Below are positions 19,294 to 31,758 of a stretch of DNA of 64,000 nt, one piece after another. Every line of letters starts with the position of its first letter. The stretch's first letter is position 1. The translations under genes and the position numbers were made by a program. This DNA comes from Actinoallomurus soli (lineage in GTDB: Bacteria; Actinomycetota; Actinomycetes; Streptosporangiales; Streptosporangiaceae), in contig NZ_JAMXMV010000017.1 in the NCBI RefSeq assembly GCF_024055715.1, positions 1 through 64,000 on the forward strand. The letters are read 5' to 3'. A model generated the notes under the pieces. It saw nothing but the letters and a program-made list of their open reading frames with translations, searched no databases and was not told the DNA's origin.

Positions 19294-20811
19294 GTGAACG
19301 ACGCGGCCGGCCGGCGCACCCGCCCCCCGGACGGCCACGGCGCCCGCCCCCCGGACGGCCGGGCCACGCGGCTTCCGGGAGGCCCGGCCACCGGCGCCCC
19401 GGAGGACCGGGCGGCGCCGACCCCGGCCACCCACGCCCCAGAGGACCGGGCGGCGCCGACCCCGGCCACCCACGCCCCAGAGGACGGGGCGGCGCCGACC
19501 CCGGACGGCCGGGGCGTCCGGAGCCTCGGCGGGCTGGCCGCCCGGACCCTGGGCTCCTACGGCGTCAGGTTCGTTCTGGGCGCGCTGATGAGCGTGGTCG
19601 TGAACCGGTCGCTGGGGCCCGAGGGCCGGGGCGCGTACGCGGTGCTGATCGCCGTCGCGACGGTCGCGTTGCACCTCGGTCAACTGTCGGTCGAGGAGGC
19701 GCACGTCGCACTCTGGTCCCGGATCCGCGACGCCGCCACCGTCACCGCGAACAGCGTGCTGTTCGGCGCGGCACTCGGATGCGTCTGCGCGGTCGGCGCG
19801 GCGATCGTCGTGGTGGGGCTGGGGCCCGGCGTCGTCCCGGTGCCCGACCTCGGCCTCCTGGCCGTGGCGCTGGCCTGGATCCCCTGCGCCATGACCGAGA
19901 AGCTGCTGGCCCGCCTCATGGTGCTGAGGACGCGGATCGAGGTCAACAACCGGAGCGGACTGCTGAGCGTGGGCGTGCACTGCGCTTCGCTGGTCCTGCT
20001 GGCCGCACTGGGCGAGGTGACACTGGGGCGGGTGGTCGCGCTGTGGACCGTGTCCGCCGCGCTGCCCCTGGTGGTCCTCCTGCCCGCCGCCCGTCCGGCG
20101 TTGCGCCACTGCGACCTCGCGGTGGCGCGCCGGACGCTCCGCCTGGGCCTGCGCTACCACACCGGCCTGGTCTCGATGTTCCTGCTGCTGCGGGCGGACG
20201 TCCTGATCCTGGGCGCGATGACGACGACCGCCGAGGTGGGACTGTACGCCGTGGCCGTGACGCTGATGGAGCTGGGCCGGGTCCCGCCCGACGTCCTCGC
20301 GAACCTCGCCATGCCGCGGCAGCTCGAAGACGACGAGCGGGCGGCGGCCCTGTTCACCGTCCGGTCCACGAGGATCGCGGCGCTCGTCGCCGCGGGCTCC
20401 GTGGGACTGCTCTGCGCCGCCGCGCCGCTCCTGGTTCCGGCGGTGTACGGTCCGGTGTTCACGGGGGCGGTCGGTCCGCTGCTCGCGCTCGCGCCCGGCC
20501 TGTGGTCGATCGGAGCGAGCAGGCCGGTCGGCGCCTTCCTGCTCCGGCTCGACCGCCCGCTGTGGAACTCGATGACGGCGGTCGCGGCCCTCTCGGTCAA
20601 CGTCGCCGTGAACCTCGCGCTGATCCCGTCCTGCGGCGCCGTCGGCGCGGCGCTCGCCTCCAGCGTCGCCTACACCGTGCTGGCGGTGCTCCAGGTCCTC
20701 TGGTTCCTGCGGGTCACCCGGAGGCCGTGGAGCGACCTGCTCCCTCGGTGCTCCGACGTCCGCTTCCTGTGGGCGACGGCCTGTCGCGTCCCGTCCTGGA
20801 GGGCCGGCTGA
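19294..20811 (+). CDS. Wzx-type polysaccharide flippase
   Basis: A 505-residue protein with about 12-14 hydrophobic helices from residue 78 on and the early RFVLGALMSVVVNRSLGPEGRGAYAV pattern of the MATE-like/PST flippase superfamily. It would move the lipid-linked repeat unit across the membrane. The first 75 residues are a low-complexity Pro/Ala/Arg/Gly stretch containing a tandem repeat (see 19402-19504), which is unusual. No later in-frame start precedes the first helix, so I keep the GTG at 19294, although its ribosome site is poor. Confidence 0.82.
   Translation: MNDAAGRRTRPPDGHGARPPDGRATRLPGGPATGAPEDRAAPTPATHAPEDRAAPTPATHAPEDGAAPTPDGRGVRSLGGLAARTLGSYGVRFVLGALMSVVVNRSLGPEGRGAYAVLIAVATVALHLGQLSVEEAHVALWSRIRDAATVTANSVLFGAALGCVCAVGAAIVVVGLGPGVVPVPDLGLLAVALAWIPCAMTEKLLARLMVLRTRIEVNNRSGLLSVGVHCASLVLLAALGEVTLGRVVALWTVSAALPLVVLLPAARPALRHCDLAVARRTLRLGLRYHTGLVSMFLLLRADVLILGAMTTTAEVGLYAVAVTLMELGRVPPDVLANLAMPRQLEDDERAAALFTVRSTRIAALVAAGSVGLLCAAAPLLVPAVYGPVFTGAVGPLLALAPGLWSIGASRPVGAFLLRLDRPLWNSMTAVAALSVNVAVNLALIPSCGAVGAALASSVAYTVLAVLQVLWFLRVTRRPWSDLLPRCSDVRFLWATACRVPSWRAG
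19402..19504 (+). repeat. 39-bp tandem repeat, 2.6 copies, inside the flippase gene
   Basis: Two identical 39-base units (19402-19440 and 19441-19479) and a third partial unit to 19504 with one mismatch encode repeats of EDRAAPTPATHAP in the N-terminal tail. The unit is a multiple of three, so copy changes keep the frame. Perfect identity suggests recent slippage or recombination. Confidence 0.9.
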
Positions 20812-23279: not shown

Positions 23280-24725
23280 TCAGCCCTGCGGGAGGGCCGG
23301 CTTGCCGGGAGACCAGAGCCAGGTCTTGAAGAACCCGCTCAGGTCCTGCTTGGAGATCTTCTGGGCGAGCGCGGTGAACTGCTCGGTGGTGGCGTTGCCG
23401 TGGCGGTGCTGGGCCGCCCAGGTGCGCAGCAGGGTGAAGAAGGCGTCGTCGCCGATCTTCTCCCGGAGGAACTCCAGCACCATGCCGCCGCCGCTGTAGA
23501 CCCGGTCGTGGAACATGGTGTCCCGCTTCGGGTCGGCGATCACGACGTTCCACCAGCTGTCCGTCGCAGAGTGGCCGTTGTAGGTGGCGAGGGCCTGGTC
23601 GTGCACCGTCCGGCCGCCGTGCTTCTCGGCCCAGTACCACTGCGAGAACGTCGCGAAGCTCTCGTTCAGCCAGACGTTGTTCCAGGTCTGCACCGAGACG
23701 CTGTCACCGAACCACTGGTGCGCCAGCTCGTGCGCGATGGTGTTCGTGCTGCGCACGTCGGAGTACAGCGGCCGGGTCTGGGTCTCCAGCGAGAAGCCGA
23801 TCGCCTGCCCGTTGTACGTCGCCAGGTCGGCGATCGCGCCGGTCGAGTCGAACGGGAACTTCCCGTACAGCTGGTCCCACAGGTCCGTGGCCTCGGCGGT
23901 GGTGTCCCAGAAGAACGTCATCGGGTCCGGGTGGTTCGGGTCGCGGCCCACGAGCTTCGGGTCGACGGCGACCGTCTCGGGGATGCCGAGCGGGGTCTTG
24001 CCGTTCTTGAAGGTCCACTTGCCGATGTCGGCGGTGGCGAGGTAGGTCGCCATCGGGTTCTTCTCGTCCCAGACGAAGGTGCTCTGATCGCCCTTCGTGC
24101 GCTGGGACACGAGCCGTCCGTTCGCGATCACGCCGAGGTCCTTGGGCACCGTCACCTTGAAGGTGAAGGCGGCCTTGTCGGACGGGTGGTCGTTGCTCGG
24201 GAACCACGTCGACGCGGCATTGGGCTCGTCGCCCATGAACGCCCCGTCGTCGGTGTGGACGAAGCCGTACGGGGAGCCGAACACGACCGGCGAGCCCACG
24301 ATCGTCTGCGGCACGCCGCCGTACGTCACGGTGACGGTGAAGCGCCGGTTCTGCCGCAGGCCGCTCTTCGGCGTGATCACCAGTTCCTGGCCGTCGCGGG
24401 TGAACTCCGCCTTGTGGCCGTTCACCGTGACCTTGGAGACCGTCAGCTGCTGCAGGTCCAGGTCGAAGCGGGACAGGTCCTGGGTGGCGCGCGCCGTCAT
24501 GGTGACGACGCCGTCGAGCCGCTTGGTCGAGGGGTCGTACTTCAGGTCGAGGCCGTAGTGCAGGGCGTCGTACCCGCCGTTGCCCTCCAGCGGGAAGTAC
24601 GGGTCGCCGATGCCCGGAGCGCCGGGGGAGAAGTGAGGCCGTGCCGCGGCGGACGCGGCGGGGGAGATGGCCGCCACGGAGACGAGGGTCGCGCCGACGG
24701 CCACCAGCCGGGATGTTCTGCGCAT
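23280..24725 (-). CDS. secreted M1 family metallopeptidase
   Basis: A 481-residue protein with a signal peptide (LVAVGATLVSVAAISPAASA). An N-terminal beta domain is followed by a thermolysin-like domain with the zinc motif HELAHQWFGD and the distal ligand in WLNESFATF. The usual GAMEN exopeptidase motif is not evident; the aligned region reads IGFSLETQT, so the N-terminal amine recognition of classical M1 aminopeptidases may be altered. The C-terminal helical domain of 800-residue members is missing, as in other short actinobacterial secreted M1 enzymes. It likely acts outside the cell on peptides. Confidence 0.88.
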   Translation of the reverse strand: MRRTSRLVAVGATLVSVAAISPAASAAARPHFSPGAPGIGDPYFPLEGNGGYDALHYGLDLKYDPSTKRLDGVVTMTARATQDLSRFDLDLQQLTVSKVTVNGHKAEFTRDGQELVITPKSGLRQNRRFTVTVTYGGVPQTIVGSPVVFGSPYGFVHTDDGAFMGDEPNAASTWFPSNDHPSDKAAFTFKVTVPKDLGVIANGRLVSQRTKGDQSTFVWDEKNPMATYLATADIGKWTFKNGKTPLGIPETVAVDPKLVGRDPNHPDPMTFFWDTTAEATDLWDQLYGKFPFDSTGAIADLATYNGQAIGFSLETQTRPLYSDVRSTNTIAHELAHQWFGDSVSVQTWNNVWLNESFATFSQWYWAEKHGGRTVHDQALATYNGHSATDSWWNVVIADPKRDTMFHDRVYSGGGMVLEFLREKIGDDAFFTLLRTWAAQHRHGNATTEQFTALAQKISKQDLSGFFKTWLWSPGKPALPQG

Positions 24726-24926: not shown

Positions 24927-26222
24927 TCAGTGAGCGGCGGCGAACTGCTCCTCTTCGGTGGACCCCTTGAGCGCCACCGTCGAGGAGTCCGGCGAGACCG
25001 CCGTGCTGACCAGGTCGAAGTACCCGGTGCCGACCTCGCGCTGGTGCTTGGTGGCGGTGTAGCCGTCCCTCTCCGCGGCGAACTCCGCCTCCTGCAGCTC
25101 CACGTAGGACGTCATGCCGTCCTCCGCGTAGCCCTTGGCGAGGTGGAACATCGAGTAGTTGAGCGAGTGGAAGCCGGCCAGGGTGATGAACTGGAACTTG
25201 TACCCCATGTGCCCGAGCTCGCGCTGGAACTTGGCGATCGTGGAGTCGTCCAGGTGCTTCTTCCAGTTGAACGACGGAGAGCAGTTGTAGGCCAGCATCT
25301 GGTCGGGGTACTCCGCCTTGATCGCCTCGGCGAAGCGCCGCGCCACGTCCAAGTCGGGCGTGCCGGTCTCCATCCACAGCAGATCCGAGTGCGGGGAGTA
25401 CGCCAGACCACGGGCGATGCACGCCTCGATGCCGTTCCGCACGCGGTAGAACCCCTCCGCGGTGCGGTCGCCGGTGGTGAACCGCCGGTCGCGCTCGTCC
25501 ACGTCGCTCGTCAGCAGCGTCGCGGCCTGGGCGTCGGTCCGCGCGATGATCAGGGACGGGACGCCGGCGACGTCCGCGGCGAGGCGGGCGGCGTTCAGCG
25601 TCTTGATGTGCTGGCCGGTCGGGATGAGCACCTTCCCGCCGAGGTGACCGCACTTCTTCTCCGACGCGAGCTGGTCCTCCCAGTGCACCCCCGCGGCGCC
25701 GGCGGCGATCATGGCCTTCATCAGCTCATAGGCGTTCAGCACCCCGCCGAAGCCGGCTTCGGCGTCGGCGACGATCGGCGCGAGCCAGTGCGGAGCGGAC
25801 TCGTCGCCCTCGGCCCAGGTGATCTGGTCGGCGCGCAGGAGCGCGTTGTTGATGCGGCGCACGACGGAGGGGACGGAGTTGGCCGGGTAGAGGCTCTGGT
25901 CGGGGTACGTGTGCCCGCTGAGGTTCGCGTCCGCCGCCACCTGCCAGCCGGACAGGTAGATCGCCTTCAGGCCCGCCCGCACCTGCTGGACGGCCTGGTT
26001 TCCGGTCAGCGCGCCGAGCGCGTTGACGTACTCGCCCTGGTGGAGCAGTGTCCACAGACGCTCCGCGCCGAGGCGGGCGAGCGTGTGCTCCTCCTGCACC
26101 GAGCCGCGAAGGCGGATGACGTCCTCGGCCGTGTAGGTCCGCTCGACGCCGGCCCACCGCGGGTCGGTCTTCCACTGACGCTGCAGCTCTTCGGCTGCTC
26201 CCTTGAGGCGACGGTCGCTCAT
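24927..26222 (-). CDS. aceA: isocitrate lyase
   Basis: A 431-residue enzyme with the catalytic KKCGHLGGK loop (Cys base) near residue 190, [17 protein letters not shown] and [11 protein letters not shown], all diagnostic of isocitrate lyase. It splits isocitrate into glyoxylate and succinate, allowing growth on acetate or fatty acids. The length matches the short prokaryotic class (about 430). AGGAGGG lies 8 bases before the ATG. The divergent ramB-type gene is the likely regulator, as known for aceA in corynebacteria and mycobacteria. No malate synthase is in the window. Confidence 0.96.
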
Positions 26223-26305: not shown

Positions 26306-26368
26306 AAGAAGAAGCGCATAAATTTCGCTACGATGAACCTGTGACGGGCTTTCAAAAAGAAGAAGCGC
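26306..26368. promoter_or_regulatory. 12-bp direct repeat pair in the aceA/ramB region
   Basis: AAGAAGAAGCGC occurs at 26306-26317 and again at 26357-26368, 51 bases apart (about five helical turns), in an AT-richer patch between the divergent aceA and ramB-like genes. The second copy lies within the ramB frame if translation begins at 26341, but upstream of it if the GTG at 26395 is used. This is a candidate operator for RamB autoregulation or aceA control. It does not match the corynebacterial RamB box that I remember. Confidence 0.4.
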
Positions 26369-27810
26369 TGAACTTGACGAATGGTCTAGACCTCGTGACG
26401 TTCGGCCAGCGGCTTCGGCACCTCCGCCGCGCACGGGGCTACACCCTCTCTGAGCTGGGAGAACGCGTGGGCCGTGCGCCATCCCAGCTGTCCCTCCTGG
26501 AGAACGGCCGGCGCGAGCCGAAGCTGTCACTGCTCCAGGCGCTCGCCTCGGCGCTCGAGGTCCCCGTCGAGGAACTCCTCCGCAAACAGCCGCCGAACCG
26601 GCGCGCCCAGCTCGAGATCGCCCTGGAGGAGGCCCAGCGCGACCCCGTCTACCGCGCGCTCGGCCTGCCGCACCTGAAGGTCGGCAAGCGGGTGCCCAAC
26701 GACGTCCTGGAGCACGTGCTCGCGCTGTACGACGAGGTGAAGCGGAGCCGTACGAAGCCGACCGCCAGCCCCGAGGACGCCCGCAAGGCCAACGCCGAAC
26801 TGCGCCGCCAGATGCACGAGCGGGGCAACTACTTCGGCGAGATCGAGCGGGTCGCGGCCAAGTCCCTGGAGGCCGCCGGCTACCGCGGCGGCGCGCTGTC
26901 CCAGGGCATGCTGCTGTCGCTCGTCACCCACTTCGGTTTCACCCTGCGATACGTCCAGGACCTGCCGCGCTCGGTCCGGTCCGTCACCGACCTGCGCAAC
27001 CGCCGCATCTACCTGGAGCGCGAGCAGCTCGGCATGCACACGCCGCGCACGATCCTGCTGCAGACGCTCGGCCACATCGCGCTCGAGCACGCCGTGCCGA
27101 GGGACTTCGCCGACTTCCTCCGGCAGCGGGTCGAGGCCAACTACTACGCCGCCGCCACCCTGCTGCCGGAACGCACGGTCGTGCCGTACCTCCAGGAGGC
27201 CAAGGCCGACCGTGAGCTGTCGATCGAGGACCTGTGCGACGTGTTCTCCGTCTCCTACGAGATGGCCGCGCACCGGTTCACCAACCTGGCGACCCACCAT
27301 CTCGATCTGCCGGTGCACTTCACGAAGAACGACGAGAGCGGCACGATCTACAAGGCGTACGCCAACGATGGGCTGATCTTCCCCGCCGACGAGCACGGCG
27401 CGATCGAGGGCCAGCGGATGTGCCGTCAGTGGGCCGGGCGGCGGGTCTTCGGCGCCGACGACCGGTTCTCGGTCTACTACCAGTACACCGACACGCCCAC
27501 CGGCACGTACTGGTGCCTGTCGCACATCGACCCCAGCCACGAGCGGGACTTCGCGATCACGCTCGGCGTCCCGTTCGAGCACTCCCGGTGGTTCCGCGGC
27601 CGGGACACCAACCGTCGCGTCAGGTCCGCCTGCCCGGACGGCGACTGCTGCCAGCGGCCCCCGGCCGAGCTGGCCCGCCGCTGGCAGGGGCACGCCTGGC
27701 CCTCGGCGCGCGCCCACTCCCACGTCCTCGCCGTCCTGCCGCCCGGCGCGTTCCCCGGCGTGGACGAGGCGGACGTCTACGCGTTCCTGGAGCAGCACGG
27801 CGAGACGTGA
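26341..27810 (+). CDS. ramB: RamB-type transcriptional regulator (XRE HTH + ImmA/IrrE-like)
   Basis: A 489-residue protein. An N-terminal HTH (FGQRLRHLRRARGYTLSELGERVGRAPSQLSLLENGRR) is followed by an ImmA/IrrE-like region with LGHIALEH (about residue 240) and a C-terminal domain with a Cys cluster (SACPDGDCCQ). This is the layout of RamB, a regulator of acetate and glyoxylate metabolism genes. It is divergent from aceA with a 118-base gap, which supports direct control. The start is uncertain: GTG 26341 gives a short tail before the HTH, GTG 26395 would begin just before it, and neither has a good ribosome site. Confidence 0.87.
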   Translation: MTGFQKEEALNLTNGLDLVTFGQRLRHLRRARGYTLSELGERVGRAPSQLSLLENGRREPKLSLLQALASALEVPVEELLRKQPPNRRAQLEIALEEAQRDPVYRALGLPHLKVGKRVPNDVLEHVLALYDEVKRSRTKPTASPEDARKANAELRRQMHERGNYFGEIERVAAKSLEAAGYRGGALSQGMLLSLVTHFGFTLRYVQDLPRSVRSVTDLRNRRIYLEREQLGMHTPRTILLQTLGHIALEHAVPRDFADFLRQRVEANYYAAATLLPERTVVPYLQEAKADRELSIEDLCDVFSVSYEMAAHRFTNLATHHLDLPVHFTKNDESGTIYKAYANDGLIFPADEHGAIEGQRMCRQWAGRRVFGADDRFSVYYQYTDTPTGTYWCLSHIDPSHERDFAITLGVPFEHSRWFRGRDTNRRVRSACPDGDCCQRPPAELARRWQGHAWPSARAHSHVLAVLPPGAFPGVDEADVYAFLEQHGET

Positions 27811-28942: not shown

Positions 28943-28982
28943 GGCCCCGCCGGGCACGGATGTCATCGTGCCCGGCGGGGCC
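28943..28982. terminator. perfect 16-bp hairpin between gpgS and the lanthipeptide genes
   Basis: GGCCCCGCCGGGCACG (28943-28958) pairs with 28967-28982 around an 8-base loop. It lies 22 bases past the gpgS stop and 6 bases past the precursor stop, so it probably ends both convergent transcripts. Confidence 0.82.
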
Positions 28983-28988
28983 GTGGGG

Positions 28989-29087
28989 TCAGAGGCAGAT
29001 GCTGCCCTTGCTGCTCATCGTGAGCACACCGCAGGCCAGCTCCTCCTGGACCGCCGCCTCACTCTGCAAACGCAGGACCTCTTCCAC
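28989..29087 (-). CDS. class III lanthipeptide precursor peptide (LanA)
   Basis: A 32-codon frame directly after the LanKC gene on the same strand. GTG at 29087 is preceded by AAGGAG with 8 bases spacing. The leader reads MEEVLRLQSEAAVQEE and carries the VLRLQ element that matches the (I/L)-x-L-Q leader motif recognised by class III synthetases (compare ILELQ of labyrinthopeptin). The core ends in T23-M-S-S26-K-G-S-I-C31-L. T23-x2-S26-x4-C31 fits the Ser/Thr-x2-Ser-x3-5-Cys motif for a (methyl)labionin ring, and another Cys sits at 19. Its first 29 bases overlap the LanKC 3' end in another frame. It is too short for routine gene finding. Confidence 0.82.
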   Translation of the reverse strand: MEEVLRLQSEAAVQEELACGVLTMSSKGSICL

Positions 29088-31758
29088 GCCGACCACTCCT
29101 TTCCATCGATGCGGGGACAACGGCGACCCTCGACCCGGCCGAGTGCCCGTCGAGGGTGTCAAGGGGAGCCGGCGCGGGATCCGTCAGGCGGCACAGGGCG
29201 AGCAGGATCCCGGCGGACCCGGACCACAGGTCGGCGGACAGCCGCTGTCCCGGCTCACCGAGCCAGCCGACGCCGTCCTCACGTGGGACCGCGGACCGGA
29301 ACAGGCCACGGGCGCTGGTGAGCGCGGCGTCCATCAGCTCGGGCCGGCCCAGCCGCCGTCCCGCGTCCGCCAGCGTCACGGCGAGACCCGCCAGACCCGG
29401 GAACAGCCCGGGGAACACGGCGAAGCGGGCCGTGCACGCGCGCAGGCAGCGTTCCAGCGCGTCCGCCGCGCCGAGATCTCCGTCGCCGATCACGTCGAAC
29501 TCCGCGTCCGGACGGCACGCCAGGTAGCGGGACAGCACCGCGGCGTATCCCGCGCTGCCGCCGAAGAGGTACGGATAGACGCGGCGGTCGTCGTGGGAGA
29601 GCCTGAAGCCGAGGCCGTCCACCGGGATCGGCTCGGCATAGGCCAGTTCCTCCCGGAGCAGTCGCATGCCGCGGGCGAACGGCCGCGAGTCCCCGGTACG
29701 GCGGTACAGGGCGTACAGGGCCAGCGCCACGCCGGTGCGCCCGCCGACGAGCCCGGACCGGTTGGTCCGGCTCAACCGGAAGGTGAGCTCGTCGCCGTCG
29801 GGAACGCGTTCGAGCAGCCGCTGGGCGAGGTCCAGCCACCGTTGCTCGCCGGTGCGGCCGTGGTGGACCAGCAGGCCGAGCGCGGTACCGGCCGCGCCGG
29901 CGCCGAGGGTCGCGACCGTGTCGTTCAGCGGATGGGCCGCCGCGGTGGCGAGCAGTGAGCCGGCCGCCTCGGACTCCCCGAGCCCGGCGAGCACACAGGC
30001 GATGCCCGCCGTGCCGTACAGCAGTCCGGGAGCGCCGGTCTCCGCAGCGGCCATCGTTTCGTCCCGGAGCCGGCGGACCACCCGGGGGTCGCAGGAACGA
30101 CCGGCGCGGTGCAGCGCGTACAGCACACCGGCGGTCCCGGCGGCCACGGCGCGGGTGCCGGTCTGATGCCCCATCGGGTTCGTCGGATAGACCCGTACCG
30201 GGTGATCCGGTTGAGCCGCCGCCTCCAGCGCGTCCGCGGTCCGGTCGGCCAGCCGGCGCAGCGCGGCGACGGTGTCCTCGCGCACGGCCCGCGGCGTGGG
30301 CAGGCCGGGGCCCTGGCGTACGCTCCCGGGCGCCGGCGGGGGAGGGGCCTCGGATCGGTCGTGGCAGTGGGTGGCCCACTGCCACAGCCTCGGGGGGACC
30401 GGTGCGAGCTCGGTGAGGTCGGCGTACAGGTGGTCGAGGGCCCGCGGGTGCCGTTCGGCCACCTCGTGCAGGGGGAACAGGAGCAGCAGCGCCAGGGCGG
30501 CCAGCCCGAAGCGGTCGAGTTCGCGCGGATCGCGCTCCACCGCGGACCGCGGATCCGGATGCAGGTAGCCGGGGGTGCCCATGATCCTCCGGACGTCCCC
30601 GGCGCGTTGCACCGCCTCGAAGTCGACCAGCCGTACCTGATCCTCGTCGTCGACGAGCACATTGGTCGGGCTGAGGTCGACGAAGACGTAGCCCAGTTCA
30701 TGCAGGCGTTCCAGCTGCGCGTCGAGCCGGTCGAGCAGGGCCAGGCAACGGCGGTGATACTCGGCGAACGCCGCGGCGTCCGGCCCGATGCGCACCGCGG
30801 GGTTGTTCAGCACCATCCACCGGTACAGCGGAACACCGGGCGTGAACTCGGTGACCAGGTAGCTGTGCTCCCAGTGGTGGAACAGCTCGACGGGCCGCGG
30901 GCACAGACCGGGCCGGCGGCCGTGGATCGCGCGCAGGGTCAGGTACTCGGCGTTCAGCCGTGTCTTCGCGTCGGCGCCGTCCGGGGTGTACCCGTTGTGC
31001 GCCCGCGCCTCCTTCACGAAGACCTGTTCGCCGGCCGGGGAGCGGAAGCGGTAGGCACCACCGGCGTTGCCGTGGCGGATCACCGCCTCGAAGCTGTAGC
31101 CGTGCAGCGTGACCGGGCCGGTCGCGGCCTCGGGGGCGGCCGTACGGAACGGGTCGGCGACGCCGGGCGGCAGATGGAACGCCGGCCGGCGCTCGTCATC
31201 GATCTCCCGGCCGTCCGGTCCGGCCATGGTGGGGACCTGATTGCCGTCCGCGTCGACCCGCAGACGGCCGCGGAACGCCCCGTAACGGTAGGAGACGCAC
31301 TCGCTCGCGCCGAAACGGCGATCGGAGAGCACGAAAGGCCCGCTGATCCCGCTCAGATCCCCGGCCAGCCGCGTTAAGAGGGACCGCGCGCACTGCTCGG
31401 TGGGCGGGTAGAGGGTGCAGAACTTGCCGCTCTGCACGCGGTTCGCGTGCTTGCCGTGCGCGTGCAGGAACATCTCGCGTCCGGCCAGGTGCTTGAAGGG
31501 GACTCCCGCCTCGGCGCAGGCCGTCGCCACCACCGTCAGCACCGACTGGGCGTTCGCCAGGGAGCTGGACACGTGGATCTTCCAGCCCTGATCGGGCAGG
31601 AGCAGACCGGCCGGCCCCCAGTGGGTCCACGCGCCCGAGTCCTGGCGCGTCCATCCGTCGGGCATGGGGCCGGCGTCATAGCGCGGACCGGGATCGGCGG
31701 TGTCCCAGGGTTCGTAGTGATCCTGATCGGCGATCAGGAAGGACATGTCCACTGCCAC
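29059..31758 (-). CDS. class III lanthipeptide synthetase (LanKC)
   Basis: An 899-residue three-domain protein. The N-terminal lyase-like domain (about residues 1-210) starts with the family pattern DHYEPWDT and contains WKIHVSSSLANAQSVL. The kinase domain (about 230-490) has VFVKEARAHNGY, the catalytic-loop-like YVFVDLSPTNVLVD and VDFEAV. The C-terminal LanC-like domain has GTAGVLYAL, GLLYGTAGIACVL and WSGSAGILLAL. The Cys/His zinc ligands of LanC and class IV cyclases are absent, so class III is favoured. It would phosphorylate, eliminate and cyclise Ser/Thr/Cys of the peptide encoded at 28989-29087. AGGAG 7 bases before the GTG at 31758 sets the start. Confidence 0.93.
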   Translation of the reverse strand: MAVDMSFLIADQDHYEPWDTADPGPRYDAGPMPDGWTRQDSGAWTHWGPAGLLLPDQGWKIHVSSSLANAQSVLTVVATACAEAGVPFKHLAGREMFLHAHGKHANRVQSGKFCTLYPPTEQCARSLLTRLAGDLSGISGPFVLSDRRFGASECVSYRYGAFRGRLRVDADGNQVPTMAGPDGREIDDERRPAFHLPPGVADPFRTAAPEAATGPVTLHGYSFEAVIRHGNAGGAYRFRSPAGEQVFVKEARAHNGYTPDGADAKTRLNAEYLTLRAIHGRRPGLCPRPVELFHHWEHSYLVTEFTPGVPLYRWMVLNNPAVRIGPDAAAFAEYHRRCLALLDRLDAQLERLHELGYVFVDLSPTNVLVDDEDQVRLVDFEAVQRAGDVRRIMGTPGYLHPDPRSAVERDPRELDRFGLAALALLLLFPLHEVAERHPRALDHLYADLTELAPVPPRLWQWATHCHDRSEAPPPPAPGSVRQGPGLPTPRAVREDTVAALRRLADRTADALEAAAQPDHPVRVYPTNPMGHQTGTRAVAAGTAGVLYALHRAGRSCDPRVVRRLRDETMAAAETGAPGLLYGTAGIACVLAGLGESEAAGSLLATAAAHPLNDTVATLGAGAAGTALGLLVHHGRTGEQRWLDLAQRLLERVPDGDELTFRLSRTNRSGLVGGRTGVALALYALYRRTGDSRPFARGMRLLREELAYAEPIPVDGLGFRLSHDDRRVYPYLFGGSAGYAAVLSRYLACRPDAEFDVIGDGDLGAADALERCLRACTARFAVFPGLFPGLAGLAVTLADAGRRLGRPELMDAALTSARGLFRSAVPREDGVGWLGEPGQRLSADLWSGSAGILLALCRLTDPAPAPLDTLDGHSAGSRVAVVPASMERSGRRGRGPAFAE

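Follow-up and report, generated by a model that had tools for sequence, protein, structure and literature searches.

A compact, putative class III lanthipeptide precursor conserved behind one clade of LanKC synthetases in two bacterial orders

The window, that is, the whole stretch of 64,000 nucleotides from Actinoallomurus soli that was analysed, carries on its minus strand a gene for a class III lanthionine synthetase (lanKC) and, at the 3' end of that gene, a short frame designated lanA (Table 1). An earlier note, made from the DNA letters, had described a GTG-started frame of 32 residues with AAGGAG at 8 bases; this was found as stated, on the minus strand, where the frame translates from its GTG to VEEVLRLQSEAAVQEELACGVLTMSSKGSICL and a stop. 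A plus-strand reading of positions 28989-29087 was discarded, as the plus strand gives different letters. Both the VLRLQ leader and the Thr-first, labionin-like core T-x2-S-x4-C proposed in the same note are present in the translation (T23-x2-S26-x4-C31), together with an additional cysteine, C19. The leader would span approximately residues 1-18, and the core probably starts at Cys19 or just ahead of it. A loose precursor screen was applied to both strands of the window, retaining frames of 25-60 aa with LxLQ within the first 14 residues and [ST]xx[ST]x2-5C near the end. The lanA frame was its sole match, and the mean over 30 mononucleotide-shuffled windows was 0.17. A better precursor elsewhere near LanKC, one of the outcomes that had been named as fatal to the proposal, was thus rejected for the 64-kb window.

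Table 1. Coordinates of the features at the lanKC-lanA locus, in window positions
Feature	Position	Strand	Description
lanKC	31746..29059	-	Class III lanthionine synthetase, 895 aa; NF038151 match; start codon inferred
lanA ribosome binding site	29101..29096	-	AAGGAG, 8 bases ahead of GTG
lanA	28989..29087	-	Putative class III lanthipeptide precursor, 32 aa; GTG start, TGA stop; from translation and 12-member alignment
Overlap of lanKC 3' end and lanA 5' end	29059..29087	-	29 bases; LanKC stop at 29061..29059
GC-rich hairpin	28943..28982	-	16-bp stem, 8-base loop, 6 bases past lanA stop

The synthetase comprises a RamC_N part, a kinase-like part and a LanC-like part. It passes the cut-offs of NF038151 (700.8 bits, cut-off 575), PF25816 (RamC_N, 212 bits) and PF05147 (LANC_like, 50.4 bits), while its 30 bits with the PF00069 kinase model fall just below the cut-off of 31.7. 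Its best solved relative is 8sap, itself a LanKC. The kinase activation segment reads VRLVDFEAV, with DFE aligned to the DFE of 8sap; a passage of PMC10604976 gives DFE as conserved among LanKCs shown to make labionin. In the LanC-like part, which in a labionin-forming LanKC would be expected to lack zinc ligands, the alignment sets FPG against the FDG of 8sap.

The 29-base overlap with the 3' end of LanKC, also part of the earlier description, was confirmed at this locus. The LanKC stop falls within the codons of leader residues 9 and 10 (agTGAg), so that the leader codons seem to produce the overlap incidentally. Across the 12 loci introduced below, the same overlap occurs in eight; LanKC ends 5 bases before the peptide gene in three and 51 bases before it in one, and neither the length nor the sequence of the LanKC tail is constant. 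The overlap is not fixed, and fairly ordinary. Together with the shortness of lanA, it could conceal the frame from gene callers.

At -42.3 kcal/mol, the hairpin behind lanA has a z of -5.8 against 200 mononucleotide shuffles. A hairpin begins at most about 15 bases past the stop in all 12 loci, with a sequence that differs between lineages; z ranged from -1.8 to -7.4, being below -3 in nine loci and between -1.8 and -2.7 in three, the G763 stretch in this comparison being apparently poor sequence. It is possibly the place where transcription of lanA ends, lying here between lanA and the convergent gpgS. This gene, for glucosyl-3-phosphoglycerate synthase, is the downstream neighbour, and a gene for an Mce protein lies upstream; both are unremarkable surroundings. 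A neighbour screen, limited to frames of at least 120 aa passing composition filters and hence able to miss a gene, and covering only 7,635 bases on the short ThermoMAG contig, found no gene common to the loci of both orders besides lanKC-lanA, and no conserved transporter, protease or glycosylation gene beside lanA. We take lanKC-lanA, on this showing, for a cassette of two genes, closed by the hairpin, that has travelled from one genomic context to another.

Three further features of the window were recorded. An M1 metallopeptidase gene (23280-24725, minus strand; PF01433 and PF17900), its product secreted-looking by eye, is one of nine M1 matches in the genome. It is a candidate for the leader protease, since AplP belongs to family M1 (a passage of PMC10885120), although no counterpart of the window's gene came up at other loci in the neighbour screen. 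A RamB-like regulator is encoded at 26341-27810 (plus strand; Pfam HTH and Peptidase_M78, with an NCBIfam match far below its cut-off), adjoining the isocitrate lyase gene (24927-26222, minus strand). At about 19396-19503 (plus strand), in-frame repeats, APEDRAAPTPATH, lie near the N-terminus of an ORF that is flippase-like by Pfam and whose start is uncertain.

The distribution of the peptide was investigated at several taxonomic depths. Among 60 genomes (that of the window and relatives), LanKCs at least 75% identical to that of the window were found in its own genome, A. iriomotensis, A. purpureus, Actinomadura sp. DC4 and one MAG, in which LanKC is split across two contigs. All five have the peptide behind them; the 25 further LanKC loci fetched from relatives (L006 to L030) yielded no such peptide. 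A scan of named contigs for the peptide returned five loci, namely four of these five and a Saccharothrix MAG; in the family of the latter, 7 of 390 genomes carry it, that MAG counted. Within the genus of the window its presence is sporadic (4/8 genomes). In the family of the window, 8 of 341 genomes matched at E ≤ 0.05, of which five were clear; the three weak matches (E 0.016-0.049) were taken as chance and left out. Among 394 genomes sampled in the class, only the own genome matched; 336 sampled in the phylum gave the own genome and one weak match (E = 0.0055), likewise treated as chance. A search of 72,556 plasmid records was negative.

A control was carried out starting from LanKC instead of the peptide. 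The LanKC cyclase part was searched in 386 genomes of the Saccharothrix family (E ≤ 1e-15) and was found in 17: seven at 71-78% identity, five at 53-58% and five at 44-48%. The seven genomes of the first set are the same seven that the peptide search in 390 genomes had found, and the peptide was not found at the ten next LanKCs (44-58% identical). A tree built from 29 LanKCs places those 12 that have the peptide (five from the 60-genome search and seven from the 386-genome search) in one group with support 100/100, and every LanKC of this clade has the peptide behind it. The clade comprises Actinoallomurus and its kin (Streptosporangiales) and members of the Saccharothrix family (Pseudonocardiales). 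Its five Streptosporangiales rows are nested within the Saccharothrix-family rows, which suggests that lanKC-lanA was transferred horizontally between the orders. The earlier note had advised looking for conservation downstream of related LanKC genes and had held that its lack would count against the frame; with the peptide kept at 12 of 12 loci in two orders, that objection falls.

The next LanKCs of the Saccharothrix family mostly have precursors of their own. By eye, eight of the ten have a different short peptide, with an LxLQ or ELQ leader and a core containing Cys, located at the 3' end or beyond it; no precursor candidate was seen within 800 bases of LanKC at L105 and L106. These peptides (MNSVLRLQ...ISTYSLSQC..., MNEVLKLQ...STLSLGC..., MSDINELQ...KSTASIVC) resemble lanA in being short, in lying at or after LanKC and in having an LxLQ or ELQ leader followed by an SxxSx2-3C core; they differ from it in having Ser first and one Cys, and in lacking T-x-S-S-x-G-S-x-C. 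The sister LanKCs L107 and L108 are each followed by two copies of precursors of the form VLRLQ...DAPIST..S...C, one of them with EHHC, which recalls the SxxSxHHC motif given in a passage of PMC11251773. At the more distant L110-L114, Cys-ended INELQ...KST.S.VC precursors lie at or just after LanKC, in more than one copy in four of the five loci. The 3' end of a second LanKC of A. purpureus is overlapped by a precursor-like frame, MRTVEQILALQEMQEDTVSVPSNCVSWTSSNTAF (L032:1486-1590, G007:C4). The own genome holds further LanKC-like genes, about 34% identical, at G000:C59:25105-27495 and G000:C6:196786-198135.

The 12 peptides are 32-34 residues long and start with ATG in ten cases and GTG in two, behind an AGGAGT ribosome site in all. 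Common to all of them are MEE.L.L..E, one Cys and T-x-S-S-x-G-S-x-C, that is, M1 (as start), E2, E3, L5, L7, E10, C19, T23, S25, S26, G28, S29 and C31, so that every candidate ring residue (T23, S25, S26, S29, C31 and C19) is invariant. The stretch from T23 to C31 has a fixed length, with the x2 and x4 spacing kept, while the gap between C19 and T23 is of three residues in eight members, four in three and five in one. The second Cys is last but one in all 12, followed by L, Q, V or A. All 12 have a same-strand LanKC neighbour, at whose 3' end they lie, and 11 carry an L-x-L-Q leader, A. purpureus having LRLH.

At the DNA level, identity among four loci of Actinoallomurus type is 80-85% within the peptide gene but falls to 33-54% (ungapped) over the 90 bases past the stop. 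Over the 32 codons of these four sequences, variable places number 13 at third, 9 at first and 6 at second positions. Of the 66 possible sequence pairs, pN/pS was computed for 12 and lay below 1 in each (0.06-0.92), the highest value, near 1, being that of the pair DC4 and A. purpureus. Judged by these substitution patterns, the peptide is under purifying selection. That the core is invariant in both orders points to a conserved function and away from an arms race.

We next consider how the family relates to known precursors. With NF038160 (lanthi_III_c), a profile of length 33 aligned over residues 2-31, the lanA peptide scores 13.2 bits for a cut-off of 27, which places it outside that model's cut-off. 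NF038160 and NF038159 (lanthi_III_b) each match one of the 12 members (best E 0.08 and 0.018), so that NCBI class III precursor models matched 2/12 at E ≤ 10, and no member has a credible Pfam match. Searched through the genome with NF038160, the lanA place was not listed at E ≤ 1, and none of 60 relatives gave a match above the cut-off. At E ≤ 1 this profile also matched 8 of 14 control genomes, and its weak matches are therefore mostly at chance level; two of them, L031 and L032, did adjoin LanKCs.

SapB/RamS, and AmfS, have a leader of the L-x-L-Q type, and RamS exceeds lanA in length and has two rings, its operon also including an ABC transporter pair. RamC-RamS shares with lanKC-lanA the order in which LanKC comes first and the precursor directly after; lanA differs in its 32 aa, its Thr in first place and the lack of a conserved transporter in our screen. 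The order ramCSAB is given in a passage of PMC13380574. With the eight other LanKCs described above, it makes a position behind the synthetase common, where the earlier note had thought it unusual. Labyrinthopeptins and NAI-112, which are labionin and methyllabionin peptides, resemble lanA at the level of the motif, a labionin-type Ser/Thr-x2-Ser-xn-Cys core, and differ in that no conserved glycosylation or protease gene was found beside lanA. Lipolanthines, which contain avionin, have a C-terminal Cys and a decarboxylase in the cluster. An avionin-type (AviCys) C-terminus was rejected for lanA, as the Cys is last but one in every member; nor do the loci of the two orders share a further gene. 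Six core strings were absent from the open PMC texts searched, and a literature search on such precursors in Pseudonocardia found nothing. An overlooked short precursor behind a LanKC is an ordinary sort of find. As far as these searches reach, the lanA family is a new set of precursors for a kind of cyclised peptide that is already known, though its members may already figure in a published precursor collection.

By its conservation, its linkage to one LanKC clade and its invariant ring residues, lanA is very probably the real substrate of the adjoining LanKC. By known class III chemistry, its leader MEEVLRLQ would dock as a helix on the LanKC kinase lobe, as an LELQL-bearing leader helix does with ThurKC in a passage of PMC10604976. 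Thr23, Ser25, Ser26 and Ser29 would be phosphorylated and the phosphates eliminated; addition of the Cys31 thiol to Dha26 would produce an enolate that attacks Dhb23, forming a Thr-first methyllabionin. Cys19 would probably react with one of the Dha residues left over to make another thioether, or else remain free; since its distance from T23 varies, a ring between those two residues is doubtful. A protease encoded away from the locus, such as an AplP-like M1 peptidase, would take off the leader; passages of PMC10885120 and PMC8960859 describe AplP-like and other proteases outside clusters. The four invariant core hydroxyls allow up to four waters to be lost, one more than the one to three that had been foreseen. 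For the core CGVLTMSSKGSICL, the computed [M+H]+ is 1398.679 unmodified, 1344.647 after loss of three H2O and 1326.637 after loss of four.

The labionin motif published as SxxSx(2-5)C (passages of PMC11251773 and PMC8960859) is matched by lanA in its spacing in 12/12 members, with Thr in place of the first Ser in all. If cyclised labionin-style, TxxSx4C would give methyllabionin, a residue already known: it is named in parts of PMC7296275 and PMC10206099, the former crediting the class III form to Meindl 2010 and Iorio 2014, and threonine variants of the class III motif are noted as predictions in a passage of PMC11251773. We regard a Thr-first methyllabionin with a second ring from Cys19 as an evenly balanced proposal.

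Other readings of the locus can be weighed against this one. That the frame is no gene, its similarity reflecting constraint on the 3' end of LanKC, would fit the overlap seen in eight loci; yet LanKC reaches no further than base 29 of the peptide gene, it stops ahead of the peptide in four loci, its tails are variable, and the T-to-C core, which lies entirely beyond LanKC, ranks with the best conserved parts. We find this reading barely credible, and as far as sequence can show it is already refuted; a functionless frame is likewise rejected by conservation behind all 12 LanKCs of the clade. If the frame is a precursor, its invariant cysteines might instead form a Cys19-Cys31 disulphide, the Ser and Thr residues being merely dehydrated and no thioether made. 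The paenithopeptins are known to have a labionin enclosed by a disulphide ring (a passage of PMC8960859), but lanA has two Cys only, so that the disulphide and a labionin at Cys31 are mutually exclusive and their combination was rejected; moreover, the LanC-like part of LanKC scores above its Pfam cut-off. A product with the disulphide and no thioether is very improbable. Of the two fates suggested earlier for Cys19, the further thioether ring thus stays plausible, while the disulphide would come at the cost of the labionin.

More weight attaches to the reading in which the same precursor receives only (methyl)lanthionines, with Cys31 bridged to a single partner, Ser26 or Thr23, and a different Dha taken by Cys19. 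The sequence is equally compatible with a plain lanthionine at C31, a Thr in first place would presumably require carbon attack on Dhb, and, according to a passage of PMC7268733, the outcome of Sx2Sx3C differs among class III peptides, being sometimes lanthionine and sometimes labionin. The DFE motif of LanKC speaks against it, as does the T23-x2-S26 spacing fixed in all 12 members, which a single lanthionine would not itself require. We give this reading appreciable but limited credence.

Taken further, the methyllabionin proposal would make lanKC-lanA a mobile two-gene cassette without transporter or protease of its own, yielding a peptide of 14-16 residues with a T23-S26-C31 methyllabionin and a Cys19 thioether, which would rely on host peptidases and export and do the same job in two orders; we offer this whole as a speculative and rather unlikely picture. 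We know of no description of a methyllabionin of this pattern locked with an N-terminal Cys thioether. By analogy with SapB-type peptides, our guess would be a surface-active or developmental peptide. With the lanA family, the class III lanthipeptides gain a group of compact precursors paired with a separate LanKC clade, a group easily overlooked at 32-34 aa, with a synthetase overlap in eight of 12 loci and scores below the NF038160 cut-off. Such a two-gene system could reveal whether a LanKC builds labionin from Thr, and what role a second, N-terminal Cys plays.
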